Shown here: piece by piece, positions 13,328 through 33,308 of the stretch | Layout: every line of letters begins with the position of its first letter | Numbering within the stretch: the first letter of the stretch is position 1 | Origin: a virus | Reading direction: 5' to 3' (one strand) | Virus record (IMG/VR): IMGVR_UViG_3300024264_000100 | Location: 1-34,376 of that record | Length of the DNA: 34,376 nt | Notes under the pieces: model-generated | What the model was told of the DNA's origin: nothing | What the model saw: the letters and a program-made list of their open reading frames with translations, nothing else | The model's database searches: none | Program-made: the position numbers and the translations under genes

Positions 13328-15901
13328 ATGCCTGTAACTAATAATAACTACAATTTTACAAATATTGTATATGAAATACCGGAAGATGCAATCATATCAG
13401 GACTGCATCCTACAGCAGTTATTACAATAGTACCTAATTCTGGGTATAATGCTACTGCATCTAATTTTTCTATGGATCCCTCTTTCTCAGATCCCTTAGT
13501 TCTTTCTGTGGTGTTTACTCAGGATGGATTAAATGTGTTATGTACAGTAACATTTGTGACTAATTTTGTTATGCCATCAAGCAATTACACTATAAACTTA
13601 TGTGTTATAGGAGATGCTGATGTAAATTTAATTACTATAGCAGGAACTATAAACGCAACCGTTACTAGTAATATTAATGGTAATGGCTCTGAAACAAATA
13701 CACCTTATTCTAATTCAGGTGTATATCAAGAAATTGAAAGCTTATTTGTAAGAACATATAATGCAGACACTGGCTATTACTTAGAAGCTCCTACAGCAAA
13801 CATTGTTACAGGTAATCAATCAAATTATACGATTGCTCAAACTCCTACGTATGATTCAAATAATAATTTAACTAATATTTCTTATAATGTAAATTATGTT
13901 TACCCGTTGCAAAATGTAGCCGGGGATTCAATTTCATTTCAAGTAGCAGCTAAAGCGATATTTACACAGACCGTAGAAATTACAGCAATACCTTATAGTG
14001 GTTGGTTTGTTCCTCAACTAGGAATAACTAAAACTTTAGAAATTTTTGGTATTGAAGGAGCTGTGTATAGCATTACAGCGACAGACGGTACAACCACTTT
14101 AAACGTAGCTACTAATGTAACTATGGATGCTTCTGGATATCAACAACAATTGGTAGAATTTCCAGCAACAGTATCTGCTAAAACATGGACATTCACATAC
14201 AGTGGGGATATTGGATCTAGTGTTGCGCCTAACCCATTGGTAGTTACTCAGTTAGGCTTAAGAGAAATAATATTTGAACCAAAACCTTCTAGTATATTTA
14301 ACGGAGGCTTTGATGTTATTCAACAATTCACTAGCATTTCGGAGCCTAACCCAGGTTCTTCTAGCTCTATAGCTACTCTTCAGTGGATTATTTCTTCCGT
14401 TAGTGGTGATCCTTTAAGTATATTTAATTCTTTAGCAAATGTGGTTTGGGAAGGGAATGAGTCTATAACGCAACAAGTTACTAGCGCTTCAGGAACTTCT
14501 ATGACTTTAGATAGCACAACAGGTATAACTGCTGGTATGAGATTTAATTTAGATGGGTCAACGCAATCAATACTAGCGTACACTGTTGTTTCTGTTGATT
14601 CAGCCACAGCGCTTACCGTAACTCCTAATTTAACAATATCTGATCCTATAGGTATAACTTTTACAAATGACAATGGATTTGATGTTGACACTACCGGTTT
14701 AAATGCTGTATATACCAACACAGATCAAAGCTCTATAACTATAAGTGGTGATATAATAATAAGTAATTACGGAGATACAGACACCGCTATGTTATTAGAC
14801 TTTAGTGACTGGATTAGTGTTGCAGTATCAATACCTTGTAGTTCATCAGTAACATCAGGAGGCATGGGTATAACAGATAATAATATTGATTTAGACCCAG
14901 CAGGTGGTTTAATAGCATTCTTAGTAGGCGCATATAGTGTACCTGATAAATTTGAAATAATTCACAATACTACTAAAAGAGCTACTTCTGGTATGTCGGT
15001 GTTAAACAGCGGTACTTATGACAATGTGTACGGCACATCACCATCAAACACAATACCAACGTATTCACAAACAATAGCTACAGATCAATTTATTGGAACC
15101 GCTAAAGGAACAATACCTACAAGGCAAGCAGCTTTTACAGCAGCTACTAGCAACACTGTACCTTCTATGACGGTTAACAGCGTTGCTTATCAACAAATAA
15201 TTTGGTTTGAATATACTACAGCAGATTATCTTGCAAGTCCTTTTGCACAATTAAGAACCACTGGTCCATCAGGAACTGCTTGGGGTGTATTAAGACTTTG
15301 TTGTCCAGATATAAATTGTACAGGATCATCTTCTTCTGCTCCAACTATAACTACTAGCGGGAATATTGCAACAGGTACTTCTACTGCTACTGTTAGCGGT
15401 GTTTTAATTAGCGACAATGGATCTGCAATTACAGCTAGAGGTATTCAATACGATACAGATAAAACTTTTAGCTCCCCTCAAACAGTTATTGATGCTGCTA
15501 CAGGTACTGCTGATTTCAGCGCAACTATAACAGGCTTAACGGCATGTACCACCTATTGGTTTAGAGCATATGCCACGAATAGTATAGGTACTACTTATGC
15601 AAATAAAGTATCAGCTACAACAACAGGGTGTGTTGCGGCTCCTTTCCCAATAACAACAGATAGTTATACTTCATCAAGTAGCGCATGCTTGCAAGGAACC
15701 TTACAGTCCACTGTTTATTTTGAAGGAGATACTTTTGCTACAGGTAAAGTAGCTTATACAGATGTCAATTTATCAAATCCTTTTATAGGCGATGGTGATT
15801 GGTATAATATAAATACAGCAACTAATGGAGCAACGGCTACTAGAGTATCTTCTACAGGAGTAGTTGGTCCGATTGCGAGTATATGTTCAATACAACCTTA
15901 A
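13328..15901 (+). CDS. Fibre-like tail protein with FN3-type domain (857 aa), possible receptor-binding
   Basis: The whole protein is Thr/Ser/Asn-rich and beta-dominated, as in tail fibres and adhesins. At about residues 380-450 there is a small beta module (GTSMTLDSTTGITAGMRF, later VVSVDSATALTV) of the kind repeated in virion surface proteins. At about 672-768 there is an FN3/Ig-like domain whose end reads TGLTACTTYWFRAYATN, the typical FN3 closing strands. The last 85 residues form another module (STVYFEGDTFATGKVAYTDV and FIGDGDWYNIN) that I have seen at the C-termini of Bacteroidota phage surface proteins. No catalytic residues for depolymerase activity are recognisable. It follows the tail hub by 11 bases. 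Receptor binding is inferred from composition and position. Confidence 0.6.
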   Translation: MPVTNNNYNFTNIVYEIPEDAIISGLHPTAVITIVPNSGYNATASNFSMDPSFSDPLVLSVVFTQDGLNVLCTVTFVTNFVMPSSNYTINLCVIGDADVNLITIAGTINATVTSNINGNGSETNTPYSNSGVYQEIESLFVRTYNADTGYYLEAPTANIVTGNQSNYTIAQTPTYDSNNNLTNISYNVNYVYPLQNVAGDSISFQVAAKAIFTQTVEITAIPYSGWFVPQLGITKTLEIFGIEGAVYSITATDGTTTLNVATNVTMDASGYQQQLVEFPATVSAKTWTFTYSGDIGSSVAPNPLVVTQLGLREIIFEPKPSSIFNGGFDVIQQFTSISEPNPGSSSSIATLQWIISSVSGDPLSIFNSLANVVWEGNESITQQVTSASGTSMTLDSTTGITAGMRFNLDGSTQSILAYTVVSVDSATALTVTPNLTISDPIGITFTNDNGFDVDTTGLNAVYTNTDQSSITISGDIIISNYGDTDTAMLLDFSDWISVAVSIPCSSSVTSGGMGITDNNIDLDPAGGLIAFLVGAYSVPDKFEIIHNTTKRATSGMSVLNSGTYDNVYGTSPSNTIPTYSQTIATDQFIGTAKGTIPTRQAAFTAATSNTVPSMTVNSVAYQQIIWFEYTTADYLASPFAQLRTTGPSGTAWGVLRLCCPDINCTGSSSSAPTITTSGNIATGTSTATVSGVLISDNGSAITARGIQYDTDKTFSSPQTVIDAATGTADFSATITGLTACTTYWFRAYATNSIGTTYANKVSATTTGCVAAPFPITTDSYTSSSSACLQGTLQSTVYFEGDTFATGKVAYTDVNLSNPFIGDGDWYNINTATNGATATRVSSTGVVGPIASICSIQP

Positions 15902-21300: not shown

Positions 21301-24300
21301 CTGTTATACCTCCTGGTTATATAGATTTTTTAAATAGTAAAAAAGCTTTTGACATTGTTACTAAGGCTTTACCTGTAAAAACAATAAAGAAAAGTTACGC
21401 TAAGCTATTTAAAATAGAAAAAGTTGGTAGAGAATTAACACCTGAAGGCAATCCAATATATAAGATAGCGCCTATAGATAAAAAAACTTTTTTACAATAC
21501 TTTTTAGATGGTAAAAAGAATACTATATTAGAAAGACAAAAACAATTAGCTAGAGAAGTTATAACTCCTGTTGTAAAAACAGTAGTAGCTGACTATGCTA
21601 CTCCCGAAAATTTAGCTGCCTTAAAAGAGATAAACGAATTAGCTCCTGCGGAAGCTTTAGATGTTATAGGTAAAATATCAATAGATGCACAATTAAACGA
21701 ACTAGAATCTAAACTTGATAGGTACGAAGGCGAACAAAAAAGTTTTGATATTATACAATTTAGTTTCGATCAAGCACAAGATAACGGGCAAACACCTCTT
21801 GATGAGAAAAGACTTTTAGATCAAGCTAAAGCAATTGTACCTGCTATAAGAGATATTGCTAAAGATTTTGGATATAATTTTGAAAATGAAGAATTATTAT
21901 TATCTAACAAAGCTAAAGGAATTCAATTATTTAATTACGATAATACTTTAAAGTTTTATAAAACTAGGGAAAACCTTATGAAATTTATGCCTACAGAACT
22001 TACTAGGTTTAGAGGAACTATAGGTGCTTTGCTGGGTTTTATATATAGAGAAGACGGTTCTGCTTTTCCTTTTGATAAAAATAAGGTTAAAAAATTAATA
22101 AACAAAAATGGTAAAGAAATTACCAACGAAGCTACATTAAAGAAGTTTCAAGAAAAAAGTTATTCAAATTATAAAAATAGTCTTTACGATAAAAAAGGAA
22201 GTACTTCTAAGTATTCTAAAGAAACAAAAAATAAATTAAAAATATTTAATAAACTTTTATCAGAAGCTAATTTACCAAAACGTGAAGGGTTTACAACAAA
22301 TGCGTATCGAGTTAGAAAAGCAAAAGCTTTATTGAATAATAACAATTCACCTGAAACTGTTGCAGGTATATTAAAAGATTTATCTAAAACCAATGAATTA
22401 AAAACAGCAGCTGCTAAATTATATATAAGTCTTTTAAGGGATTTTGTAAATTCTTCACCAATAAATAAAAAAGAAGAAGCTGTTAAAGCTGTTGTCGTTA
22501 TGTTGGTAAGCAATAGAAATACAGTAAATGCTTTAAGATCTTTTTCAACTGTAGATAGAATTGTGTATGATTCTAAAAATGAAAAAACTAAATATCATTT
22601 TGAACACAACACAGCTATGGCTAGAATAATACCTCGTGTTTTTAGAATGATATTAGGAGATGGTCCTATAAGTTTTGATTCTAAAGCTACATTAATACCT
22701 AAGCAAATAGCTGATATTAGAGATTCAAACCCTAAAACTAAGACTAGCAACTCTGATGTTTTTATGACTTTATTAAAAACTGAGGTTGATAAAAACAAAT
22801 ATTCCACAGCTCTATTAGATTCTAATAACGATATAATACAATTTTCTAAAACATTAAACGAAGATTTTAATAATATAATAGAAGGGGCTACTGGTATAAA
22901 AGGATTTAAAGTATTCTCTGAAGCAAAAGGTAAGGTTAGAGGTAGAGACAAAGGTAAGTTTAAGTTTTTTATTCCGCCATCTGCAGATGACTTTGCAGGT
23001 TTAGTTAGTCGACTATTAGGAAAAGGGGAAGAAGGAAATAAAAATGCAGCCTGGTTTAAAGAAAACTTATTTAATCCGTTTGCTAAAGGCATTAGAGATT
23101 TTGAAACTTATAAAGAACAGACTACTCACATGGTCAAGGCTTTAAAGAAGCGTATTAAGAATGTACCTAACGGTTTAAACAAAATAAATGAAACTGGCTT
23201 TAGCAATGAAGCAGCAGTAAGAGTTTATCTTTGGGCTAAAAATGGTTATGATATTTCTGGTTTATCTAAAACTGATCAAAAAGATTTAATAAAAATAATT
23301 GAAGAGAACAAAGCTTTAAAAGAGTTTGCAGATGAATTAGATCAAACCTTTAATGGATATCCTGAACCTAATAATGATTGGTTGGCAGGCACAATTACTA
23401 CAGATGTAATTAATATGGTTAATACATCTAAGCGTGCAGAATTCTTAGAAGCTTGGCAAGAGAAATCAGATATTATTTTTTCTAAAGAAAACTTAAACAA
23501 ACTTAGAGCAGCTTACGGTGATAATTATGTGGAAGCATTACAAGACATGCTTTACAGAATGAAGACTGGTAGGAACAGACCTTCCGGAGCTAACAAGCTA
23601 ACTAATAAGTTTATGAACTGGGTTAACGATTCTGTAGGAACTATTATGTTCTTTAATACTAGATCAGCCTTACTACAAACATTGTCTATTGCAAACTTTA
23701 TTAACTGGGGTGATAACAATCCAGCTAAAGCAGCAATGGCTTTCGCAAATCAAAAACAATTTTGGGCAGACTTTGCGATGCTTTTTAATTCTAACTTCTT
23801 AAAACAAAGACGATCAGGATTAAAGAATGATGTGAATGCTGATGATATTGCAAACGCAGCAGAATCTGCAACTAATAAATCAAAGGCTGTATTAGCTTCT
23901 ATATTAAAAATGGGATTCCTACCTACACAAATGGCAGATAGTTTTGCTATAGCTATGGGTGGAGCTTCATTTATTAGAAATAGAATAAATAAATATGTTT
24001 CAGAGGGTATGGACACAAAAGCTGCTGAAGAGCAAGCGTTTTTAGATTTCCAAGAAGTAGCCGAAGAAACACAACAGTCTTCGAGGCCTGATAGAATATC
24101 TCAACAACAAGCAAGTCCATTAGGACGTATAATATTAGCTTTTGCGAATACGCCTATGCAATACATGAGATTAACTAAAAAGGCTTTCTTAGACCTTAAG
24201 AACAGGCGTGGCGATGCTAAGACTAATATATCTAAAATAGTGTATTATACTTTTGTGCAAAACATTATATTCTCTGCATTGCAATCAGCTTTATTCGCGG

Positions 24301-24872
24301 CAATGTTTGAAGATGATGATGAGGAAGCACTAAAGAATAAAGAAATAAGGATAGCTAACTCAATGCTGGACTCTATACTTAGAGGTGTAGGTATTTATGG
24401 GGCTATAGCTTCTACTGGTAAAAATATAATATTAGAAATTGACAAGCAAGCTAAAAAACCTAGACCTGATTTTACACAAGCTGCAATTAGATCTTTAGAT
24501 TTATCACCACCATTATCTTCTAAAGTTAGAAAATTAATGAGTGCAGGTAGAGCATTTAGTTATAGCAATGTTAGAGATAAAATGACTGGATACGGATTAG
24601 ATAATCCCGCTTTTTATGCAGGAGGACAAATAGTATCAGCTTTGACCAACGTACCTTTAGATAGAGCTGTTAAGAAAGCAGACAATATTCGTGTGGCAAT
24701 GGACAACGACACGAAGATGTGGCAATCTATAGCACTTTTATTAGGTTATAGTCAATGGGATCTTGGCTTAGTAGAAACTTCAGCTACTAAAAAGAAAAGT
24801 AAATGGGGGAGCACAGCTAAGTGGAAAAAAGCAAAAAATTGGAAAAAAGAATGGAAATCTAAAAACAAATAA
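18348..24872 (+). CDS. Giant internal virion protein (large polyvalent protein, 2174 aa) with zincin-like HExxH site
   Basis: This is the largest gene in the window. Residues about 9-64 hold two imperfect copies of a motif ending TNSEF(D/S)(T/D)WKTNV. A hydrophobic Gly/Ala segment lies at about 200-228 (SMLGSVIYGAGTLGTGFF). At 600-604 it has HEVLH, preceded by ERTGSINAGM, a typical zincin motif; Glu653 in NTEYVNVFADAL is a candidate third zinc ligand. Near the C-terminus are segments I recognise from large virion proteins of other phages, about 1767-1850 (FFNTRSALLQTLSIANFINW) and about 1909-1945 (LGRIILAFANTPMQYMRL), then hydrophobic helices at about 1964-1990 and 2010-2030. The tail is very basic (many Lys and Trp). 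Such proteins are packaged and injected with DNA. Protease activity, perhaps peptidoglycan or host-protein directed, is inferred only from the motif. Confidence 0.72.
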   Translation: MADDILKNIWNELSSKGKTNSEFDTWKTNVYSNEEVQNNVYGYLKDNGYTNSEFSDWKTNVLPAKTNDSASADPAVESQSDTGSQSEEPLSAWQSIKNSFSNVGEQVGDVFEFWFDTNEEEGGGARSALDIATNTVYAGIFGQDKVDQFVKEQGEDSWISGGIGTKGTLESIEKFKKEQLESKETLGIIESVKNGDIGGALAGGVNAITSMLGSVIYGAGTLGTGFFMDYTAENFVEYNKLKAENLGVSFDELLKSGKADNAIPIGMGAISTALEFIGLGAVAKGAKGAVKGTGSTGLIGMGSKYLAEKLIYNKGARATMRMLSTGATEFTTEILQHAADQVNVELGSVAGTDKESEIFKTVIDAVTSQEGLEAGLQGFIGGGGMVAGTYSAKSMNTIRTVVDGDKVNKNINDLSVLRKKFNTTDNKLVKEGIQAQINEKESEIADAVRKGNDIYNSLTDKQISKIESLTDLADAAAFKVTELNKQFRKNEISESQYTLAMEGFKSEYDSARKALTAMELGKNLETAETIAKEKGLELDVKTTAEVEALINSDKISPENRETYYKERKEGKDISAFVIGNKLVIDKEIAERTGSINAGMHEVLHPVFNKLVGDAKKQGKMVNQFRRAMTSSQRRFVDAQMKKRGYTGKSYNTEYVNVFADALRKKQINYDKTVFEKIGSAIVSPFKSVGYKNIGFEKGQDVYNFIKEFDASAEQGKLTEKAAKALEGVDLSDAVLKEGVSFSKTLTPEQNTEFAADISTIKSLAAENAAIAKKFGKEPIKGAKQSRLEQKVLAGIKTLVDKVVTNRTKALYDPIADDAKRNVSRQEFKDSMKVDIETMALNEYNGSQELEKFIVSRGYLRANNLAKRLGIESQEDGGIKADVDSAKNITNTKDEQTIDRSGTVERGQATFDELDIVDDKLISEIESEVSKELRMRARKGTLSEMISVKKGRDTYFVSWLENFVDKTLFKKILKKWGAIGESKGVTVIPPGYIDFLNSKKAFDIVTKALPVKTIKKSYAKLFKIEKVGRELTPEGNPIYKIAPIDKKTFLQYFLDGKKNTILERQKQLAREVITPVVKTVVADYATPENLAALKEINELAPAEALDVIGKISIDAQLNELESKLDRYEGEQKSFDIIQFSFDQAQDNGQTPLDEKRLLDQAKAIVPAIRDIAKDFGYNFENEELLLSNKAKGIQLFNYDNTLKFYKTRENLMKFMPTELTRFRGTIGALLGFIYREDGSAFPFDKNKVKKLINKNGKEITNEATLKKFQEKSYSNYKNSLYDKKGSTSKYSKETKNKLKIFNKLLSEANLPKREGFTTNAYRVRKAKALLNNNNSPETVAGILKDLSKTNELKTAAAKLYISLLRDFVNSSPINKKEEAVKAVVVMLVSNRNTVNALRSFSTVDRIVYDSKNEKTKYHFEHNTAMARIIPRVFRMILGDGPISFDSKATLIPKQIADIRDSNPKTKTSNSDVFMTLLKTEVDKNKYSTALLDSNNDIIQFSKTLNEDFNNIIEGATGIKGFKVFSEAKGKVRGRDKGKFKFFIPPSADDFAGLVSRLLGKGEEGNKNAAWFKENLFNPFAKGIRDFETYKEQTTHMVKALKKRIKNVPNGLNKINETGFSNEAAVRVYLWAKNGYDISGLSKTDQKDLIKIIEENKALKEFADELDQTFNGYPEPNNDWLAGTITTDVINMVNTSKRAEFLEAWQEKSDIIFSKENLNKLRAAYGDNYVEALQDMLYRMKTGRNRPSGANKLTNKFMNWVNDSVGTIMFFNTRSALLQTLSIANFINWGDNNPAKAAMAFANQKQFWADFAMLFNSNFLKQRRSGLKNDVNADDIANAAESATNKSKAVLASILKMGFLPTQMADSFAIAMGGASFIRNRINKYVSEGMDTKAAEEQAFLDFQEVAEETQQSSRPDRISQQQASPLGRIILAFANTPMQYMRLTKKAFLDLKNRRGDAKTNISKIVYYTFVQNIIFSALQSALFAAMFEDDDEEALKNKEIRIANSMLDSILRGVGIYGAIASTGKNIILEIDKQAKKPRPDFTQAAIRSLDLSPPLSSKVRKLMSAGRAFSYSNVRDKMTGYGLDNPAFYAGGQIVSALTNVPLDRAVKKADNIRVAMDNDTKMWQSIALLLGYSQWDLGLVETSATKKKSKWGSTAKWKKAKNWKKEWKSKNK

Positions 24873-24874
24873 AA

Positions 24875-25027
24875 ATGAGTGATTTGAAGTTATACATTAT
24901 AAATGGCAGCACAATAGGAGTTACCACAATAGCACCTATAGAAGATTGGCTAAAGATAATATTGTTGGTTGTAACTATAGGTTATACAATATCTAAATGG
25001 TCAAAAGTGAATGAGGAAGATAAATAA
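24875..25027 (+). CDS. Holin-like small membrane protein (50 aa)
   Basis: This 50-residue ORF begins 2 bases after the giant virion gene. It reads MSDLKLYIINGSTIGVTTIA at the start, has one clear membrane segment at about residues 25-42 (WLKIILLVVTIGYTISKW), and ends with a charged tail (SKVNEEDK). It overlaps the amidase start by 17 bases in another frame, the usual linkage of holin and endolysin. With a single predicted membrane helix it would be a class III-type or pinholin-like protein that lets the amidase reach the cell wall. Size, topology and position support it; lysis activity is inferred. A membrane anchor for another lysis component is an alternative. Confidence 0.6.
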   Translation: MSDLKLYIINGSTIGVTTIAPIEDWLKIILLVVTIGYTISKWSKVNEEDK

Positions 25028-25445
25028 AATAATAATACATTGCTCTGCCACACAAGAGGGTAGACACCTAGATGCTGCAGAAATAAATCGCTGGCATTTA
25101 AAAAGAGGCTGGAAAGGTATAGGCTATCACTATGTTGTTCTACTGGATGGAACTATAGAGTATGGTCGTAGCATATACGATCCTGGGGCTCATGTTAAAA
25201 ACCATAATAAAGATTCTATAGGAATTTGTTATATTGGAGGCGTAGAGTCAGAGAGAGGCTCAAACGGTAAGTGGATTGCTAAAGATACTAGAACGCCTGA
25301 GCAAAAAGAAAGCTTACTACTATTAATTAAAACATTAACAAAAATGCACCCCGAAGCTACGATACATGGGCACAATGAATTTGCTGCGAAAAGTTGCCCG
25401 TGCTTTGATGCTAATAAAGAATATTGTAATATAAAAAGTGTATAG
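25011..25445 (+). CDS. N-acetylmuramoyl-L-alanine amidase (T7 lysozyme-type endolysin)
   Basis: This is a 144-residue Amidase_2/PGRP-family enzyme that cleaves the amide bond between N-acetylmuramic acid and L-Ala in peptidoglycan. The zinc ligands fit T7 lysozyme (His17, His122, Cys130): His10 in IIIHCSAT, His121 in IHGHNEF and Cys129 in KSCPCFD. The catalytic Tyr46 and Lys128 correspond to Tyr39 in GYHY and Lys127. The length is close to T7 lysozyme (151 aa) and there is no cell-wall binding domain or signal peptide, so a holin would be required for export; a candidate overlaps it. The T7 enzyme also inhibits its RNA polymerase, but no such polymerase is seen here and that role is not claimed. 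Confidence 0.93.
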   Translation: MRKINKIIIHCSATQEGRHLDAAEINRWHLKRGWKGIGYHYVVLLDGTIEYGRSIYDPGAHVKNHNKDSIGICYIGGVESERGSNGKWIAKDTRTPEQKESLLLLIKTLTKMHPEATIHGHNEFAAKSCPCFDANKEYCNIKSV

Positions 25446-25448
25446 CAT

Positions 25449-25595
25449 ATGAGAACAAAAGGAACAGGTCCTCAAGGACTAGGAGTAAAAGGAAACAATG
25501 GATATCATATAGGATCGCCTGCTAAATGCTGGAAGACACATAAGCGAGTACCAGGTACTAAAAAAGGCGCTAAAGGTAGTTGTGAAAAGAAATAA
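25449..25595 (+). CDS. Small basic Gly/Lys-rich protein with two Cys (48 aa)
   Basis: This short ORF begins 3 bases after the amidase stop. It begins MRTKGTGPQGLGVKGNNGYH and ends PGTKKGAKGSCEKK, with a central SPAKCWKTHKRV. Nearly a third of residues are Lys or Arg and a quarter Gly, with two Cys and no membrane segment. Short basic proteins of this style occur late in structural blocks of marine phages and may bind nucleic acid or sit inside the virion, but I do not know a characterised relative. It is considered real because of tight spacing and phage-like composition. Its stop codon lies in the A-rich flank of the terminator hairpin for the opposing operon. Confidence 0.55.
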   Translation: MRTKGTGPQGLGVKGNNGYHIGSPAKCWKTHKRVPGTKKGAKGSCEKK

Positions 25596-25618
25596 AAAAA
25601 GGGATCATTTCTGACCCC
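25594..25618 (-). terminator. Rho-independent terminator of the minus-strand operon
   Basis: Read on the minus strand, GGGGTCA-GAAA-TGATCCC forms a 7-bp stem (one G-U pair) with a GNRA tetraloop, followed at once by seven T. It lies 66 bases beyond the nrdA stop codon and is a classic intrinsic terminator for the nucleotide/replication operon. In the plus direction the G-U pair becomes an A-C mismatch and no T tract follows, so it is predicted to work mainly in one direction. Confidence 0.8.
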
Positions 25619-25623
25619 CTCTT

Positions 25624-25648
25624 CTAACTAACTAACTAACTAACTAAC
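25624..25648. repeat. (CTAA)6 tetranucleotide repeat with stops in all six frames
   Basis: Six perfect tandem copies of CTAA plus one C stand between the two convergent gene blocks. Because the period is four, the plus strand has TAA in all three frames, and the complement (TTAG)6 has TAG in all three frames. It therefore ends translation of any read-through in either direction. Whether this is selected or a simple slippage repeat cannot be told from one genome. Confidence 0.9.
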
Positions 25649-25649
25649 C

Positions 25650-25685
25650 AAAAGTTATTATACTATCTAAATAGTTATAACTTTT
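25650..25685 (+). terminator. A/T-rich hairpin at the convergent junction, possible plus-strand terminator
   Basis: Outer arms AAAAGTTAT (25650-25658) and ATAACTTTT (25677-25685) pair over 9 bp, and inner arms ACTAT and ATAGT pair over 5 bp around a CTAA loop, with a small asymmetric bulge between. The 3' arm ends in four T on the plus strand. It overlaps the nrdA stop codon by two bases. As the only other structured element after the lysis genes it is the best candidate for ending plus-strand transcripts, but the stem is weak (few G-C pairs). Confidence 0.45.
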
Positions 25686-27402
25686 ATCCATCACACGCTA
25701 AGCAATCTTCATTCATCGCTGTAGCCGCAATATCTCCACGCAGAACACTCTCTGTTCTCGTATAATATAATGTTTTAACACCATTTTTCCATGCTTCCAT
25801 ATGCACTTTATTAAGCCATTTAGGTGTTGCTTCACTTGGAAAAGCTAAATTTAAACTTACCGACTGATCTACATATTGCTGTCTCAGTCCAGCCTGATTA
25901 ACTAATTCAAGTTGATTAATTTCCTTAAACGTTTTAAAAACTTCTTTAGCAGGTATGTCATGCCCCATAACAATATTATCAAGCTCAGATATATCCTGTA
26001 CAGAACCTCCATCAGCGAGTATCTTATCCCAAATTTCATTTGTATTTATTTTATGTTTCCTTAATAATTTAACTAAGGTAGGATTTTTTCTTATAAAAGT
26101 ACCTTTAGCTGATTGTTCTGTGAATACGTTAGCAGCCCACGGCTCTATACCTGGCGAAACATTTCCACTAAGTTTACTATTACTAACAGTGGGAGCAACA
26201 GCACGCAAGTGAGTATTGCGCATGCCAGTACCAGCACACCACAAAGGCTCGCCATAAATTTCAGAAAGATCCATAGAAGCCCTTTCGCTTTCGATTTTAA
26301 TTTGACTGAATATTTTCCTAGTTTCAAACTGAGCAAGTAAACCTTCAAAAGGAACACCTTTGTCTTGGAGATAGGTATGCCATCCGAGGACACCCAACCC
26401 AAGAGCTCTTCCTTTCTGAGCACTACGAACGGCATTTTCAAAACCTCTAAGTCCTTTTGCTCTTTGAATAAATTCCTCCATAACGCCGTCAAGAAACCAT
26501 ATGGCGTCGTATATAAGATTAGTATCCTTCCATTCTTCATACTTTGCTAGATTTAACGATGATAAACAACATACAAAACTATGGTTTTCATCTGTGTGTA
26601 ATGTAATTTCAGAACATATGTTTGTCATATGTACTTTTAAGCCGTTTTCTTTGTATGCTCTAGGATTTGATTTGTTAACGTTTCCTTTAAACATAATATA
26701 CGGTTCTCCAGTTGCTTTTCGTTTTCTAAGCAATTTACTCCACTTAGATCTTGCTCCTGCATCTCCTTGTTCAAGCTTTCGCATAAATTTATCACCAACA
26801 ACTGCGCACTGATGTAAGTTAAGCGATTGTCTATTAACGTCTCCTTTAGGTTCTCGTATTTCAAGCCACTGTTCAAAATCGTCATGATCAATGTTGATGT
26901 TGACGCTTGCAGCGCCCCGTCTAACTGATCCTTGATTTGTTGCAAGAATTGTTGAATCGTATATCTTGCAGAAGGGTACGACTCCGTCTGATGTTCCATT
27001 ACCTGTAATTTTAGCGCCAGCGGGTCTAATTTGATTTATACCGATACCAACTCCACCGCCGTGCTTAGCGAGTAGCATCATCTCTAAATTTTTACTTCCT
27101 ATATCCTGTATACTATCTGCTACGTCAATACCAAAGCAACTAATAGGGAGGCCACGGTCAGTACCAGTATTACTAAGTACAGGAGATGCCAAACATAACC
27201 AACCATTCCAAATATAATTGAAAAAGGTTTCAGCAAGTTCCGGTTTATAAAGCCTACGAGCAACAGTCTTAGAGACACGAAGGTATGCTTCTTTAGGTGT
27301 TTCTCCGTCAAATAAATATCCCCCGGATATAGTCTTCTTGTATACGTCGTTATTACCCCACGCAGGGTAATCTTCTCCTTTAATCCATTCATTGTTCCAC
27401 AT
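25684..27402 (-). CDS. nrdA: Ribonucleoside-diphosphate reductase large subunit (class I alpha)
   Basis: This catalytic subunit reduces NDPs to dNDPs with NrdB. Visible catalytic residues, compared with E. coli NrdA: Cys89 (in ISCFGI, for Cys225), Asn261-Cys263-Glu265 (in TNICSEITL, for Asn437, Cys439, Glu441) and Cys278 (in FVCCLSS, for Cys462). Tyr546-Tyr547 correspond to the Tyr730/731 radical relay, and Cys567/Cys570 form the C-terminal redox pair in CLACDG. At 572 residues it is much shorter than E. coli NrdA (761): the N-terminal ATP-cone is absent and the protein begins near the core, so overall inhibition by dATP through that domain is not expected. It is last in its operon and abuts the upstream gene with no gap. 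A terminator lies downstream. Confidence 0.95.
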   Translation of the reverse strand: MWNNEWIKGEDYPAWGNNDVYKKTISGGYLFDGETPKEAYLRVSKTVARRLYKPELAETFFNYIWNGWLCLASPVLSNTGTDRGLPISCFGIDVADSIQDIGSKNLEMMLLAKHGGGVGIGINQIRPAGAKITGNGTSDGVVPFCKIYDSTILATNQGSVRRGAASVNINIDHDDFEQWLEIREPKGDVNRQSLNLHQCAVVGDKFMRKLEQGDAGARSKWSKLLRKRKATGEPYIMFKGNVNKSNPRAYKENGLKVHMTNICSEITLHTDENHSFVCCLSSLNLAKYEEWKDTNLIYDAIWFLDGVMEEFIQRAKGLRGFENAVRSAQKGRALGLGVLGWHTYLQDKGVPFEGLLAQFETRKIFSQIKIESERASMDLSEIYGEPLWCAGTGMRNTHLRAVAPTVSNSKLSGNVSPGIEPWAANVFTEQSAKGTFIRKNPTLVKLLRKHKINTNEIWDKILADGGSVQDISELDNIVMGHDIPAKEVFKTFKEINQLELVNQAGLRQQYVDQSVSLNLAFPSEATPKWLNKVHMEAWKNGVKTLYYTRTESVLRGDIAATAMNEDCLACDG

Positions 27403-27820: not shown

Positions 27821-28789
27821 TTACCACATGTCTTCAAAATCCTCTCCCTCGTTCGCTTTTGAGTAATCAGTTGACCTAATCGCAAAAAAGTCAGTATGGG
27901 TAACGCCCCCGGTAAGATGATAAAACCAATCAAGATTACCTGCTGCATTCTTGTCATAGGCAAAGTAATTCCCAAGGTCAATATAGCCAAGCTCCACAAG
28001 TTTTTCATTTGTTCTTTTCTTTATAAAATGTTTTAGATCATTAGCAGATATACCTTCTATATCTCCCATCTCAAACATTTTGTTAATGTAAATGGTTTCT
28101 AATTTAACCATCGCTTCAGCAGCTTTTATCACGTCTTCACGACATAAATTTAATAACTGACTGTTTTCACTGCACATATGGCGAAACAATGAGCAGCCCA
28201 TCTTACTATGCAATGATTCATCTCTAACAGACCACTTCATTTGTTGTCCAATACCTTTTAAAAGGTTTCTCATTTGAAAACTATATAATACAGCAAAAGC
28301 AGAATAAAGGCTAACCCCTTCAGCAAATGCACTAAATACAGCGAGAGACTTAGCAATGCCAATCTCAGAATTACCTTTATATGCAACGAGATTTTCAAAT
28401 CTTTTAGCCGTAGCAGGTTCATGTAAAAATGCTTCATAATCTTCTAATCCTAATGTTTCGTTCAAATAACTATAAGCAACAGCGTGAACTGTTTCTTGCG
28501 ATCCGAACATCATCGCCATTTGTTGTATCTCGTGTTTAGGAAACCACGATACGACGTTCTGGGTCCAGTAATCTGAAACGGCGCACTCGGTTTGCGCGAA
28601 TCCAAGAAGTATGTTCCCAACAAGGTTTTTTTCTTTTTCATCTAATTTTTCTTTCCAATCTTTAATATCACTTTGCATTGAGATTTCAGTGTGTAACCAA
28701 AATGCTTGAGCTTGTTTTAACCAACCCTCAGTATAATACTCTGGGTACTCAAAAGGTTTATATGCAATTCTTTCATCAAATAATCCCAT
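27821..28789 (-). CDS. nrdB: Ribonucleotide reductase small subunit (class I beta), Glu as first metal ligand
   Basis: This 322-residue ferritin-like subunit makes the oxidant that starts NrdA catalysis. Compared with E. coli NrdB (Asp84, Glu115, His118, Tyr122, Glu204, Glu238, His241), spacing is kept exactly: Glu68, Glu99, His102, Tyr106, Glu157, Glu191, His194. The first ligand is therefore Glu instead of Asp, while the radical-forming Tyr position is still Tyr. Glu at this site is known from subclass Ic (Chlamydia, with Phe at the Tyr position) and from subclass Id first described in Flavobacterium johnsoniae. The acidic C-terminus (NEGEDFEDMW) fits the tail that docks to NrdA. No NrdI or glutaredoxin gene is visible in the window. 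Confidence 0.95.
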   Translation of the reverse strand: MGLFDERIAYKPFEYPEYYTEGWLKQAQAFWLHTEISMQSDIKDWKEKLDEKEKNLVGNILLGFAQTECAVSDYWTQNVVSWFPKHEIQQMAMMFGSQETVHAVAYSYLNETLGLEDYEAFLHEPATAKRFENLVAYKGNSEIGIAKSLAVFSAFAEGVSLYSAFAVLYSFQMRNLLKGIGQQMKWSVRDESLHSKMGCSLFRHMCSENSQLLNLCREDVIKAAEAMVKLETIYINKMFEMGDIEGISANDLKHFIKKRTNEKLVELGYIDLGNYFAYDKNAAGNLDWFYHLTGGVTHTDFFAIRSTDYSKANEGEDFEDMW

Positions 28790-28954: not shown

Positions 28955-29115
28955 ATTATTCCGTATTTTTTTTGTAATTCAACAATATCTTTGTATTTAA
29001 TTTTACCTTTAACTTCCCAGCTCCATTTAACAAACTTATCAATTTGACGCTCAGCGTATTTCTGCCTAGCTATTCGCTTCGCCTGGAAAGGATTAACTTT
29101 ACTGTCTCTTCGCAT
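28951..29115 (-). CDS. Small basic ORF coupled to the next gene (54 aa)
   Basis: This 54-residue basic helical peptide begins MRRDSKVNPFQAKRIARQKY and ends DIVELQKKYGII. Its ATG lies inside the 3' end of the endonuclease I-like gene (46-base overlap in another frame) and its TGA forms ATGA with the following start. Without this ORF the minus strand would have a gap of about 115 bases in an otherwise gapless operon. Function unknown; the Arg/Lys-rich N-terminus could bind nucleic acid. Confidence 0.5.
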   Translation of the reverse strand: MRRDSKVNPFQAKRIARQKYAERQIDKFVKWSWEVKGKIKYKDIVELQKKYGII

Positions 29116-29528
29116 TCTTTTTGATTTTGTGGTTTGTATAATGTTACATTCGGAAATTGATTCATAACAAGTCTTTTAAACAACTTCCAACGCATTGGAA
29201 ATGATTCATTAGCTCTACCTTTAGTTTCAATTATAAAATCATCACCAATAAAATCAGGAGTATATTTAATTGGTAAGATTCTTTTCTCACCTCTATTTTT
29301 ATAATCTCCTTTACCATTAGCTTGTCTTTCATAAACTTTGTTTTCAAAATGAAAACCTGGTAGCAATACAAAGGTTTCACCTTCATACTTGTTTTTAATT
29401 TTAGCGTTTTTTAAAGCAACATACATATGCTTCTCAAGACCTGATGCAAAGTCGATACCATCATATGATACCTTCTTTGCTCTTACTGGTCCACGCTTTC
29501 CGCTTTTTCTTTTAAATTGTTTTCTCAT
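29070..29528 (-). CDS. T7 endonuclease I-like nuclease (152 aa), probable Holliday-junction resolvase
   Basis: The motif order matches T7 gp3 endonuclease I, a PD-(D/E)XK enzyme that resolves branched DNA before packaging. In T7 the catalytic residues are Glu20, Asp55, Glu65 and Lys67; here Glu32 stands in FASGLEKHMY, Asp92 in KYTPDFIGDD, and Glu101/Lys103 in FIIETKGRAN. The length, 152 residues, is almost that of T7 (149). The N-terminus is very basic (KQFKRKSGKRGPVRAKK). A VRR-NUC-like or other small PD-(D/E)XK nuclease is an alternative. It overlaps the upstream MazG-like gene by 17 bases and the downstream 54-aa ORF by 46. It belongs to the replication operon with primase-helicase and exonuclease. 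Confidence 0.72.
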   Translation of the reverse strand: MRKQFKRKSGKRGPVRAKKVSYDGIDFASGLEKHMYVALKNAKIKNKYEGETFVLLPGFHFENKVYERQANGKGDYKNRGEKRILPIKYTPDFIGDDFIIETKGRANESFPMRWKLFKRLVMNQFPNVTLYKPQNQKECEETVKLILSRRSE

Positions 29529-29772
29529 CTATAACTTCTAAGTCGGATAATAAATCTTCTTGAAGATCTTCTGTATATGTTTCTTTAGCTTTCTGAAGAT
29601 ACAATACAGCATCCATTAATTCTTCTTGTAAGTGATTAAGCCATTCAAACATTTTTGAAGGATCTTGCTCAAGAGTTACGCCATATTTTTTAAAGCCTAC
29701 ATCTGATCTAGATACAAATTTATTAACAACACGTTTGACTACTGGGTCTCTAAATTCTATTTCTTGTTTCAT
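29512..29772 (-). CDS. MazG-like NTP pyrophosphohydrolase-type protein (86 aa)
   Basis: This small helical protein has SRSDVGFKKYGVTLEQDPSK at about 21-40 and WLNHLQEELMDAVLYLQK at about 44-61. The EELMD stretch (Glu50, Glu51, Asp54) resembles half of the metal-binding EExxE motif of the all-alpha NTP pyrophosphohydrolases (MazG, dUTPase-2, dCTPase groups). The second ExxD motif is not clear, so it might need a partner or have lost activity. I have seen similar short proteins in many phages. It overlaps the upstream GIY-YIG/MazG gene by one base (TAATG). Substrate unknown; a dNTP-sanitising or dCTP-hydrolysing role is inference from the neighbourhood. Confidence 0.5.
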   Translation of the reverse strand: MKQEIEFRDPVVKRVVNKFVSRSDVGFKKYGVTLEQDPSKMFEWLNHLQEELMDAVLYLQKAKETYTEDLQEDLLSDLEVIDEKTI

Positions 29773-30524
29773 TATAATGTTTGTTTAACAAAGGTTCCAT
29801 TCTCCATCTTACCTGTACGATTTTTTATTACAGAATAAGCAGAGTCAATACAATCTTCAATAGTTAAGTTTTCTAATGCTGCTAAGTTAGTTAAAACTAC
29901 AACAATATCCCCTATAGCGTCAATAATTTCTGGTTTATCTTTAGTAAGTAATGCTTTTGCTAACTCACCAGTTTCTTCCATTAATTTAACATACTGTGTT
30001 TTGCTATCTCCTTTATCATATATGCCTTTAGCGTGAGCCCACTGTCTTATTAATTCAAATCTATCTTCTTTATTCCATGATTGACTAAATGCAGCAGCAA
30101 ATGCTTTATTATATATATAAGATCTATGGTCATTAAACATTGATCTTTTTGCGTTAGCCATAATCCATGTAATAGTCTCAGCAGTTAATTCAAAGTCACC
30201 GTGGTCTGTAGACCATTTAACCCCAACGTTATCCATTAAATTACCTTTTAATTTGTTTAATGGGAAGGGGAATGTGCTTGTCTGCTCTGTAGCGTTAATT
30301 TTCATTTTATTTGATTTGATTAAATTCTTATAAGACTGTCTATCAACCTTATAGCCATAAGACTTTTGAAGCTCTATTTCCTTATATGACACATAATCAA
30401 TGTCATCGCTAGTAAGTAGAACTTCGTATTCGTCTGAAGCATAGCCTTGCTGCTCCGTAACTCTACTATTAAGATTACGTGTAACTCCTATTTTTTTACC
30501 TGGAATGTGATAAATATAATACAT
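29772..30524 (-). CDS. Fusion of GIY-YIG nuclease-like and MazG pyrophosphohydrolase domains (250 aa)
   Basis: Residues 1-65 resemble a minimal GIY-YIG endonuclease domain: MYYIYHIPGKKIGVTRNLNSR has the YIY...KIGVT pair in place of GIY...YIG, Arg16 or Arg21 as the conserved arginine, and Glu51 in YKEIELQKSYGYKVD as a candidate catalytic Glu. Residues about 155-225 form a MazG domain with both metal motifs: Glu183-Glu184-x-x-Glu187 (KLMEETGELAK) and Glu199-x-x-Asp202 with Asp206 (PEIIDAIGDIVVV). The linker region (about 90-150) is unassigned. MazG enzymes convert NTPs or dNTPs to monophosphates and PPi. It sits between the ThyA-family gene and a second MazG-like gene. The MazG part is confident; nuclease activity is uncertain because the GIY motif is not canonical. 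Confidence 0.72.
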   Translation of the reverse strand: MYYIYHIPGKKIGVTRNLNSRVTEQQGYASDEYEVLLTSDDIDYVSYKEIELQKSYGYKVDRQSYKNLIKSNKMKINATEQTSTFPFPLNKLKGNLMDNVGVKWSTDHGDFELTAETITWIMANAKRSMFNDHRSYIYNKAFAAAFSQSWNKEDRFELIRQWAHAKGIYDKGDSKTQYVKLMEETGELAKALLTKDKPEIIDAIGDIVVVLTNLAALENLTIEDCIDSAYSVIKNRTGKMENGTFVKQTL

Positions 30525-30532
30525 ATTTTTAG

Positions 30533-31354
30533 TTATTTGCCAACACTTAACTCTGCTTTAATTGCAGGATAAGGATTGTAGTTAATTAATTTAATTTCAT
30601 TAGCTTTTGGAATTCTTACATTAGACATTTCAAGATCTATGCCTTTGTCTAGATGCAAAAACGGTAAAGGCCGTTTAGATCTATCTAAATACACTTCAGC
30701 TTGATCTAGGTGATTATTATATAAATGACAATCACCAAGTTGTCCAATTAATTGTCCAGGCTCTAATCCTGCACCTTTAGCCAACATTTCTAACAGTAAG
30801 CCATACATTGCAATATCATAAGGTAGTCCTAAAAATACGTCAGCAGATCTTTGTTGCCACATTAAATCCATTATACCGTTATTAATATAAACTTGAAAAG
30901 CGTAATGACACGGGGGTAATACCATTTCATTCATCTCATGTGGAGCCCACGCGCTAACCATAAGACGCCTAGAGTCTGGATTAGTATTAATGCTATACAC
31001 AAGATTTTGCAGCTGATCTACGCCGTTAAAATCACGCCATTGTTTTCCATATACTGGGCCTAATGTTTCATCAGTTCTACCTGAGCGTTCATAATCTGGG
31101 CGCCAATATTTTACTCCATTATCTTCTAAGTATTTAAGATCAGTTCTACCTTGTAATATCCAAAGCAATTCTGTTCTTGCTGCATTAAAAGAAATTTTCT
31201 TTCCAGTTAATAAGGGGAACCCCAAGGCCATCTGGTGTCGGATAGTTCTTCCGAAGATAGATCGCGTCCCAGTGCCTGTTCGGTCCTCCTTATGTAATCC
31301 TGTGTTGAGTATTTGTGATAATAATCCTCTGTATTCATTTTCTATGTTTGTCAT
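30533..31354 (-). CDS. Thymidylate-synthase-family enzyme, predicted dCMP (hydroxy)methylase
   Basis: This 273-residue ThyA-fold enzyme has DRTGTGT (Arg25), ELLWILQG (Glu62), DSRR (Arg129, Arg130), catalytic Cys149 in LPPCHYAFQVY, QRSADVFLGLP (Arg169, Asp172) and DCHLYNNH (His210, Tyr212), so folate-dependent transfer to C5 of a pyrimidine nucleotide is expected. The deciding difference is at residue 180: Asp (GLPYDIAMY), where E. coli ThyA has Asn177 (GLPFNIASY). This Asn binds the uracil ring; Asp is found in T4 dCMP hydroxymethylase, and Asn-to-Asp in L. casei ThyA is known to give dCMP methylation. The enzyme is therefore probably a dCMP methylase or hydroxymethylase. The start is the ATG at 31354 (20-base overlap with the upstream gene); a TTG at 31375 would only add seven residues beyond the usual ThyA start. 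Confidence 0.85.
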   Translation of the reverse strand: MTNIENEYRGLLSQILNTGLHKEDRTGTGTRSIFGRTIRHQMALGFPLLTGKKISFNAARTELLWILQGRTDLKYLEDNGVKYWRPDYERSGRTDETLGPVYGKQWRDFNGVDQLQNLVYSINTNPDSRRLMVSAWAPHEMNEMVLPPCHYAFQVYINNGIMDLMWQQRSADVFLGLPYDIAMYGLLLEMLAKGAGLEPGQLIGQLGDCHLYNNHLDQAEVYLDRSKRPLPFLHLDKGIDLEMSNVRIPKANEIKLINYNPYPAIKAELSVGK

Positions 31355-31598
31355 AATAATATTTACAAAATTCAAAGCATTTCTGCCATATAATAGTTTT
31401 TTCGTAAGCTTCAGGAGATACGTTAGTCTTACCTTTGTTTGTTATAGTTACATACCATTCAGTAGTTGACTTTGCTTTTGGTGAAATAGCTATGCCATTA
31501 TTTACGCACCATCTATAAGCTTCCCAGTCTTTTTCATTATAACCAGTTACGCCCATGTCTACAGAACCTTTACGTTTTTTTCCTAAGCCACTACCCAT
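31335..31598 (-). CDS. Unknown 87-aa protein between primase-helicase and ThyA-like genes
   Basis: The protein begins MGSGLGKKRKGSVDMGVTGY and continues with WEAYRWCVNNGIAISPKAKS, then a beta part (EWYVTITNKGKTNVSP), and ends in an aromatic-rich helix (IIWQKCFEFCKYYYDKHRK). It is basic at both ends with three Cys and many Trp/Tyr. It has no membrane helix or known catalytic motif. I have seen this type in phages of Bacteroidota beside replication genes but without a function. It abuts the primase-helicase stop codon and overlaps the ThyA-like start by 20 bases, which supports coupled translation. Confidence 0.6.
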   Translation of the reverse strand: MGSGLGKKRKGSVDMGVTGYNEKDWEAYRWCVNNGIAISPKAKSTTEWYVTITNKGKTNVSPEAYEKTIIWQKCFEFCKYYYDKHRK

Positions 31599-33308
31599 TT
31601 ATTCCCACGGCATTTTTTCGCCGGCTAAATTTAATTGTTCATGCGGTATAAAACAACCTGACTTTGGATCCCATTTAAAATGAGCTTCAGCTTGGTTAGT
31701 ACCTAAGTTTTGAAACTTAACTTTTAATACCTTAGCTTTAACAGTATTGTCTTCATAGTTTCTATGTACTAATATACCATGATAAGATGCATCATACCAT
31801 TCACCACCCCCTTTAATAGAATACATAGTTGGCTCATCTATTTGGCCACTTTGATTTTTATACATTTTAGTAGGGTGCGCTACGATAAACACTAGTACAT
31901 CATACTTCTTAGCAAAGATTTCAATCTTACTTAAGTATTCCATAGTATATCTATTTACGTCTTCGGTCTTAGCATCTACATCTCTAACCTTATTGAATGG
32001 ATCAATAACTAAACACTTAATACCTTTACGCTTAACAAGCTCTGCTCCTTTACGTAATACGGATTCTAAAGTATATCTTTCCATATCAATGTGAAAGTAA
32101 TTAGTGTTGCAATGATCAGCCACTTGATTCCAACGATCTCCGCCGATATCATCTCTAGTAGGCATACCTTGCCAAGTCTTACGCATTAATTTATGAGCGT
32201 GTAAATAAGTTGGTTGATTTTCTGGCGACGCGAACGCTGTCTTCCATCCATAGTTATTATTATATCCGACAACCATTTGATCGACGAAATCGCTCTTACC
32301 GGAACTAGGAATACCAGTAACAGTAATGAATTGACCAGTGTATGTTGAAAAGATATCATCGAAATTTTGCAACCCAACTTGAAATCCAGGTTTAAAGCCA
32401 TTGCGCACAAAGTCCGTAACCTCGTCTTCGATATCCCTGAATGTTGTAACATTCTCAAGCGGTACTGGTCTTGCTCCCGAAATACGCTCTGATAGTTTTT
32501 CTTTTCCATGTTTTTGTAAATATTCGTTTGCGTCCTTGCAATCATCGAATGAAACTAAATAACAAACTTCTGAACCTAATCTACGTATAAGTTCTGATTG
32601 TAAAGCTTGTCCTGCTTCATCATTATCTACTGCTAATATAATTTTATCTTTGTCTTCAAAGTAATCTATACAAGCATCTAAGTATTCAAGGTTATTTGTG
32701 TTAAGCGTAGCCCCATTAGGAACTGATATTGCATTTGGTATTCCAGCTTCGTGTAGTGCAAGCACGTCCATTTCACCTTCAACAATAACACAATACTCAT
32801 ATCCTATTATACTATTTATATTATAGAATACTTTTTCAGCGCCTTTGTATAATTTAAAGTTTTTTCTACCATCACGGTACTTAACGTTTATAAGCTGATC
32901 GCCCATAAAATAGTTAAACTTTATAACATTCTCGGTTTTACCGGTCTGTGGCATATACTCAGGACCTTCACTAATCCTTAGATCAGCTAAGGTCTCCTGA
33001 GAAATACCTCTTGTATTAAACCATTCAACCACCTTGCTCGCTGGAGGATTATGCTTAACCTCAGTAGGTCTTACATATACCTTTTCACTAGCTCCTTTAC
33101 GTTGGTACGTATGTAGTTGAAATGATGTATTACAATTATGACAAGTACCAAGACCACGTTCCCAATCATATGAAGCACATTTTGCTTTCACATTTTTAGG
33201 TTTTCTATCAGGAGAACAGTTAGGGCATATACCCTGTTTCTTTCCTTCTTCAAGCTTATGTTGATTGAACTCATCAATCAAAAATCCATTGATCTCTGTT
33301 GTCTGCAT
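31599..33308 (-). CDS. DNA primase-helicase (T7 gp4-type)
   Basis: This 569-residue bifunctional replication protein has the same domain order as T7 gp4 (566 aa). An N-terminal zinc ribbon is formed by Cys28, Cys31, Cys56 and Cys59. A TOPRIM primase core at about 170-235 has VIVEGEMD (Glu178, Asp181) and LAVDNDEAG (Asp228, Asp230). A RecA-like hexameric helicase domain spans about 300-545, with Walker A TGIPSSGKSD (Gly337, Lys338, Ser339), Walker B CLVID (Asp436) and the sensor-like His478 in VAHPTK. It unwinds the fork and makes RNA primers for lagging-strand synthesis. It ends in PWE, an acidic tip less extensive than that of T7 gp4. The matching DNA polymerase is not in the window. Confidence 0.93.
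   Translation of the reverse strand: MQTTEINGFLIDEFNQHKLEEGKKQGICPNCSPDRKPKNVKAKCASYDWERGLGTCHNCNTSFQLHTYQRKGASEKVYVRPTEVKHNPPASKVVEWFNTRGISQETLADLRISEGPEYMPQTGKTENVIKFNYFMGDQLINVKYRDGRKNFKLYKGAEKVFYNINSIIGYEYCVIVEGEMDVLALHEAGIPNAISVPNGATLNTNNLEYLDACIDYFEDKDKIILAVDNDEAGQALQSELIRRLGSEVCYLVSFDDCKDANEYLQKHGKEKLSERISGARPVPLENVTTFRDIEDEVTDFVRNGFKPGFQVGLQNFDDIFSTYTGQFITVTGIPSSGKSDFVDQMVVGYNNNYGWKTAFASPENQPTYLHAHKLMRKTWQGMPTRDDIGGDRWNQVADHCNTNYFHIDMERYTLESVLRKGAELVKRKGIKCLVIDPFNKVRDVDAKTEDVNRYTMEYLSKIEIFAKKYDVLVFIVAHPTKMYKNQSGQIDEPTMYSIKGGGEWYDASYHGILVHRNYEDNTVKAKVLKVKFQNLGTNQAEAHFKWDPKSGCFIPHEQLNLAGEKMPWE

Follow-up and report, generated by a model that had tools for sequence, protein, structure and literature searches.

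Gene content of the locus

The window analyzed here is the whole 34,376-bp virus record IMGVR_UViG_3300024264_000100, which belongs to a marine phage. Six minus-strand genes follow each other with almost no gaps, in the order primase-helicase, an 87-aa open reading frame (ORF), a thymidylate synthase (ThyA) homologue, a MazG protein, an 86-aa ORF, and a DUF1064 gene (Table 1). The 87-aa ORF had no match among Pfam or PHROG profiles.

Table 1. Features of the locus in window coordinates
Feature	Coordinates	Strand	Evidence or remark
Primase-helicase	31599..33308	(-)	Toprim/DnaB_C and phrog_239; upstream flank of exchanged cassette
87-aa ORF	31335..31598	(-)	Between primase-helicase and ThyA; overlaps ThyA start
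Asp-type thymidylate synthase homologue, predicted dCMP C5-(hydroxy)methylase	30533..31354	(-)	PF00303 2.5e-86, 289.5 bits
Codon of specificity Asp (E. coli TS Asn177 position)	30815..30817	(-)	Residue 179 of translated stretch
GIY-YIG-like/MazG fusion protein, 250 aa, predicted dCTP pyrophosphohydrolase	29772..30524	(-)	
N-terminal GIY-YIG-like domain, residues 1–72	30309..30524	(-)	T5orf172/MUG113 matches in homologues
MazG domain, residues 154–250	29775..30065	(-)	PF03819/PF01503 above curated cut-offs; fold matches
EExxE motif of MazG domain, residues 183–187	29964..29978	(-)	
ExxD motif of MazG domain, residues 199–202	29919..29930	(-)	
Small two-helix protein, 86 aa, not MazG	29512..29772	(-)	
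DUF1064 nuclease-like protein	29070..29528	(-)	PF06356, phrog_190; downstream flank of exchanged cassette
Ribonucleotide reductase small subunit	27821..28789	(-)	PF00268 1.6e-56
Ribonucleotide reductase large subunit	25684..27402	(-)	PF02867 5.8e-92

As proposed in the first-pass annotation of this DNA, the MazG gene lies directly behind a ThyA homologue that is predicted to modify dCMP. The ATG start codon of this gene at 31354 is identical to the end coordinate given there, and the protein matches PF00303 and passes the NCBI thymidylate synthase model TIGR03284. The catalytic Cys, Arg, Ser, Asp, His, and Tyr residues are all kept, and Asp replaces the Asn of dUMP enzymes at the Asn177 position. 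The reading of Asp at 177 as a mark of dCMP enzymes follows PMC8670742 and the mutagenesis cited there.

The MazG domain had been described as complete, with EExxE and ExxD motifs, and this description holds. Both motifs are present, and the domain scores above two curated Pfam cut-offs (PF03819 MazG, 27.1 bits, cut-off 22; PF01503 PRA-PH, 25.8 bits, cut-off 21.3). The acidic residues of the motifs are invariant across 24 diverse homologues, with the one exception of E199 (at least 90% conserved). The structural model of the protein (mean pLDDT 88.9) has two C-terminal beta strands and resembles MazG, human DCTPP1, and MazZ structures, and its best PDB matches are members of the MazG family (1vmg, 7mu5, and 7ody; TMt up to 0.76). 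Since the best Foldseek E value was only 0.014, the fold assignment relies on probability and TM-score in combination with the profile match. Pizza proteins retrieved in a PDB sequence search were taken as artefacts of designed repeats.

The 86-aa ORF had been put forward as a second MazG-like gene, and motif, profile, and model all speak against this. It carries one EExxD motif only and matches solely PHROGs of unknown function. None of 28 members of its family matched a MazG Pfam profile, and its model consists of two helices without a PDB match; the model and the missing profile match together rule it out as a second MazG. The family is also found in phages where neither a homologue of this MazG nor an Asp-type ThyA was found.

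Conservation and cassette exchange in the window lineage

Queries with ThyA and MazG retrieved ~200 IMG/VR loci, some of them overlapping on one contig. In the window lineage, every readable ThyA gene next to this MazG (203 of 203) has Asp at the specificity position, a figure exact to within one because one of the 203 Asp rows (L209, a Bacteroides phage) lies outside the lineage. The count also held one Asn row, a control from outside the lineage (L210), and one row truncated before the position.

The slot before MazG is filled by three very different enzyme classes, all of the Asp type: the window's own TS-like class, one marked by Tyr at position 147, and one that most resembles MilA and T4 dCMP hydroxymethylase. 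His147 and Trp80 are kept in the window class, and position 147 is Thr or Tyr in the other two. According to mutagenesis cited in PMC8670742, engineered Asp-type TS methylases also keep His147, which makes 5-methyl-dCMP a serious alternative to 5-hydroxymethyl-dCMP; for the TS-like class of the window, the two products are equally plausible. Each near-full relative carries exactly one PF00303 gene (48 of 48), and ThyX was detectable in 0 of 49 window-lineage records, so the window gene is unlikely to be an ordinary thymidylate synthase kept alongside a second one.

The ThyA class differs in 38 phage pairs, some of which repeat one contig, with at least 93% protein identity in both primase-helicase and NrdB. 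Around the exchanged cassette, the flanks have ~92% DNA identity, while ThyA is unalignable and MazG is kept. In one such pair (L088 and L177), the flanking genes have about 90%–93% DNA identity, ThyA shows no similarity at the DNA level, another ORF stands in for the small one, and MazG is 73% identical. In another (L015 and L121), ThyA is unalignable, both phages retain the small ORF, and their MazGs are 83% identical. When the T4-like ThyA class is exchanged, the 86-aa ORF goes with it. Across these exchanges of dCMP enzymes, MazG is the partner that remains. That near-identical phages can differ in which of the three classes fills this slot suggests an exchange of the modification itself, plausibly driven by pressure from host defences.

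It had also been suggested that a nucleotide kinase or glycosyltransferase be sought outside the window. A T4-type dNMP kinase (PF21448) and a GT2 glycosyltransferase (PF00535, the family through which glycosyltransferases were searched) were each found in 0 of 25 window-lineage records, several of them possibly fragments. A PF02543 carbamoyltransferase over cut-off, a dCMP deaminase, and PolA were each found in 0 of 49 such records, several again possibly fragments. With no T4-type dNMP kinase, GT2, or PF02543 match over cut-off in near-full relatives, the rest of a T4-like pathway was not seen. The annotated relatives with the most similar portal protein (MW202828, Maribacter phage Panino, Elemovirus) showed neither a homologue of this MazG nor a PF00303-type gene in the stretches fetched, and they therefore offer no cultured test case.

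Linkage beyond the window lineage

A Bacteroides-phage hydroxymethylase was used as a query and returned 80 loci, all with Asp. A MazG of the window subfamily was present in 55 of them, always within 1.5 kb and with E ~1e-40 in nearly all; the other 25 showed none. By contrast, an Asn-type ThyA query gave this MazG in 3 of 80 loci. An unbiased scan for the Asn motif, with 118 usable loci, yielded two MazG-like matches, a weak one (E ~1e-4) within 1.5 kb and another at a greater distance. Overall, this MazG stands beside about 1%–4% of Asn-type ThyA genes. Clustering at 90% left MazG in 33 of 47 Asp versus 3 of 163 Asn clusters, and clustering at 70% in 16 of 26 versus 2 of 114 (Fisher P = 1.6e-12), with P values that are not fully independent and limited phylogenetic independence, since only two Asp clusters remain at 50% and the Asp sample thus amounts to one broad enzyme family.

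The reverse search used a stand-alone MazG from one of the hydroxymethylase-query loci. An Asp-type gene lay within 1.5 kb in 74 of 80 loci; among the rest, two genes were unreadable as Asp or Asn, two were Asn type and more than 2.6 kb away, and two loci had no such gene (one near a contig end). GTDB contigs, mostly binned with Bacteroidota, agreed with the linkage in six of six cases. The proposed check, whether the MazG/ThyA-Asp pair is conserved in related phages and absent where ThyA has Asn, thus came out in favor of the interpretation within the lineage and in both search directions, with MazG all but missing beside the Asn type.

MazG is located upstream or downstream of the Asp enzyme, either adjacent to it or with genes between, and these varied gene orders argue against a single frozen arrangement. 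They also bear on whether the two genes are neighbors through common descent in one phage family, with no functional meaning to their association. The whole region is indeed common to the window-lineage loci, but elsewhere the two genes are found together in several gene orders and in differing phage backgrounds, and phages of the lineage have exchanged the enzyme for distant classes without losing MazG. The bidirectional searches have already largely refuted this explanation, and we regard it as very improbable.

A gene that lies between MazG and the hydroxymethylase most often encodes a dCMP deaminase (33 loci in one cluster; PF00383, 5.3e-24 in the example tested). Within 1.5 kb of the Asp enzyme, and with both sets counted, MazG and deaminase occur together in 43 loci, MazG only in 81, neither in 28, and a deaminase without MazG in 0. 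That two neighbors of this pyrophosphatase both consume dCMP suggests that dCMP is what MazG produces. A role for MazG in cleaning up pathway by-products, either modified dCTP or the 5-(hydroxy)methyl-dUTP that arises by deamination, is compatible with the linkage data, which fit any substrate of the pathway, and DCTPP1 also hydrolyzes C5-modified dCTP (PMC7162842). Hydrolysis of modified dCTP would nevertheless be self-defeating, and the neighborhood shared with dCMP deaminase fits dCMP as the product, so that we consider by-product cleaning highly unlikely compared with the hydrolysis of dCTP itself. A carbamoyltransferase was found in 7 of 50 other Asp or MazG records (raw count), none of which has this MazG in the fetched locus.

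Phylogeny of the MazG domains

A tree of 57 clusters of MazG domains places all 42 Asp-linked ones in a single clade (support 94/89), and the Asp-linked state changes once in 95% of bootstrap trees, although the tree is unrooted, is built from a short alignment with cluster-majority labels, and has many forks without resolution. The clade was sampled largely through environmental contigs. Each of R160, G172, T176, and N213 is shared by at least 98% of Asp-linked MazGs and by at most one third of unlinked ones. MazGs of cultured phages without the Asp enzyme fall outside the clade, and no Asp-type ThyA was found near similar MazG domains in cultured phages (Streptococcus, Staphylococcus, Riemerella, Nitratiruptor, Vibrio MJW, and LUZ100). 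The wider MazG family therefore has other uses.

These MazGs from phages without modifying enzymes are one reason to consider that the protein is a general house-cleaning or pool-balancing enzyme, acting on dUTP or several dNTPs, that merely neighbors the modifying enzyme. The RNR genes nearby in the window would suit such a role, as would the cyanophage MazG, which acts on many dNTPs with a preference for dGTP and dCTP (PMC6850273). Against it, MazG is linked specifically to Asp-type ThyA and hardly ever to the Asn type, and the Asp-linked MazGs form a separate clade. In addition, the other lineages have no RNR within 1.5 kb of the pair when searched with the window's own RNR, which weakens the reading of the region as a generic nucleotide module. 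On balance, general house-cleaning appears unlikely.

A model for cytosine replacement

Taken together, these patterns indicate that the cassette probably makes C5-modified dCMP and at the same time starves the phage of unmodified dCTP. MazG would hydrolyze dCTP to dCMP and pyrophosphate, and the Asp-type ThyA, judged by its Asp and its family, would then add a one-carbon group to C5 of dCMP. Phosphorylation of the modified dCMP would follow; as searches turned up no T4-type dNMP kinase, host kinases would probably carry it out. The resulting nucleotide would be polymerized into phage DNA in place of cytosine. The idea that a dCTPase feeds the modifying enzyme came from the first-pass annotation, where it rested on gene order in one contig. 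It is strengthened here by a recurrent and specific linkage to Asp-type enzymes, much stronger ground for proposing dCTP as the substrate than gene order in a single genome; the second MazG no longer forms part of it. Recurrence of the pair across many uncultured phages suggests a widespread way of replacing cytosine.

A role acting on (p)ppGpp or on the host stress response is often stated for marine phage MazG, an annotation tradition discussed, for example, in PMC9038755. The cyanophage enzyme neither binds nor hydrolyzes (p)ppGpp (PMC6850273), and such a role does not predict linkage to a dCMP enzyme; we consider it hardly credible for this MazG. If the cytosine-replacement model is true, it provides a concrete alternative to the stress-response role.

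Comparison with known systems

The proposed logic is that of T4 gp56, gp42, and dCMP deaminase, by which dCTP is converted to dCMP, dCMP to modified dCMP, and surplus dCMP to dUMP. A gp42-like enzyme fills the ThyA slot in relatives of the window, and a dCMP deaminase joins the pair in other lineages. The components differ, however. T4 gp56 matches dUTPase_2 (PF08761), whereas the window has a MazG; the window ThyA is TS-like rather than gp42-like; and the T4-type dNMP kinase and GT2 were not found in its relatives. Direct homology between this MazG and gp56 was considered, and profile comparison detected no relation.

MazZ of the Z-genome phages S-2L and phiVC8 is likewise a MazG-fold phage pyrophosphatase that feeds a base-modifying enzyme. 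The MazZ structure 7ody is among the fold matches of the window MazG, both have two C-terminal beta strands, and N-terminal fusions, as in the window protein, are known for MazZ-1 (PMC8342488). S-2L MazZ is (d)GTP-specific and lies beside purZ and datZ, whereas the partner in the window is an Asp-type ThyA and neither purZ nor datZ occurs among the window neighbors scanned. Human DCTPP1, also of the MazG superfamily, makes dCMP from dCTP (PMC7162842) and is represented among the fold matches by 7mu5. It differs in having a cellular house-cleaning and thymidylate-supply role, and PDB searches gave no sequence match between it and the window MazG.

Co-occurrence of PF01503, dCMP deaminase, and an Asp177 thymidylate synthase (PF00303) in cytosine-modified phage contigs was reported by MetaGPA (PMC8670742), and the window MazG matches the same PF01503 family above cut-off. 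That study centers on a carbamoyltransferase and does not mention MazG, and in the records searched here the carbamoyltransferase appears only where this MazG does not. The domain co-occurrence is thus already on record, MazZ is a functional precedent, and the strategy itself is known rather than a new kind of system. If the model is true, the approach of T4, in which the normal nucleotide is destroyed and a modified one made, has been assembled with a different dCTPase, in parallel to MazZ. A distinct MazG clade would then mark cytosine-replacing phages, and phages with modified DNA could be recognized from sequence alone, including many whose genes are otherwise named "thymidylate synthase" and "MazG."

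A GIY-YIG-like domain fused to MazG

The MazG protein also has an N-terminal GIY-YIG-like domain that the first-pass annotation missed. T5orf172 was matched by 17 of 22 homologues of the protein (best E value 6.5e-6) and MUG113 by 15 of 22; the window's own copy scores 18.4 against T5orf172, slightly under the curated cut-off of 20. Tyr, Lys, Gly, Thr, Arg, and Glu residues are invariant in the domain, among them Tyr5, Arg21, and Glu49, and the model has the order beta-beta-alpha-beta-alpha. A GIY-YIG profile search of PDB sequences gave no meaningful match. Lys replaces the Tyr of the YIG motif, which leaves nuclease activity uncertain. The fusion to MazG was also found in two loci of other lineages (L259 and L270).

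T4 endonuclease II attacks cytosine-containing DNA. It is a GIY-YIG nuclease, judging from titles cited in PMC11404850. That the domain in the window protein cuts unmodified DNA is speculative. A bifunctional anti-cytosine enzyme is a tentative and rather doubtful extension of the model: the MazG half would remove dCTP and the GIY-YIG half would cut DNA with unmodified cytosine, either that of the host or phage DNA that escapes modification, which would place the jobs of T4 gp56 and endonuclease II in one polypeptide, inside a cassette that is exchanged to switch cytosine modifications.

Host and gene content of the lineage

The closest annotated relatives of the portal protein of the window come from an uncultured Manatee Spring podovirus and from Flavobacteriia phages (Maribacter, Flavobacterium, Cellulophaga, and Tenacibaculum). 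Because these nearest relatives include Flavobacteriia phages, portal sequence similarity suggests a host in the Flavobacteriia. A search of 49 window-lineage records, several of which may be fragments, turned up no family A DNA polymerase; in contrast, relatives of the window do have a primase-helicase, a ligase, ERF, and a sigma factor. Relatives also apparently encode a phage GroEL, accompanied in G001 by GroES, with identity based on by-eye recognition for G001 and G004 and on annotation for Elemovirus. Neither GroEL nor GroES was seen in the window fragment.

Coordinates of features in the window and in related records
Record	Position	Feature
Window	1199-3631	Portal protein
Window	29512-29772	Small two-helix protein (alignment A3)
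G001 (relative)	11122-12932	Apparent GroEL, with GroES
G004 (relative)	56441-58006	Apparent GroEL
L597 (relative)	24233-26046	Apparent GroEL
L583 (relative)	14797-15516	239-aa ORF
L569 (Paenibacillus phage Diva)	6988-8342	DNA-cytosine methyltransferase, then MazG relative

Neighbors of ThyA and MazG

The small two-helix protein belongs to a widely found phage family, and its version switches along with the T4-like ThyA class. In L583, a relative carrying that class, an ORF flanked on both sides by RNR genes matches DUF6445 (weakly) and phrog_1644. Carbamoyltransferase and the MazG subfamily of the window may be alternative partners of the hydroxymethylase. Hydroxymethylase loci L213, L219, L223, L237, L238, L243, and L244 have a carbamoyltransferase in their records and are without this MazG. 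In Paenibacillus larvae phages, a DNA-cytosine methyltransferase is directly followed by an unlinked MazG relative (one not near an Asp-type ThyA), as in Diva.
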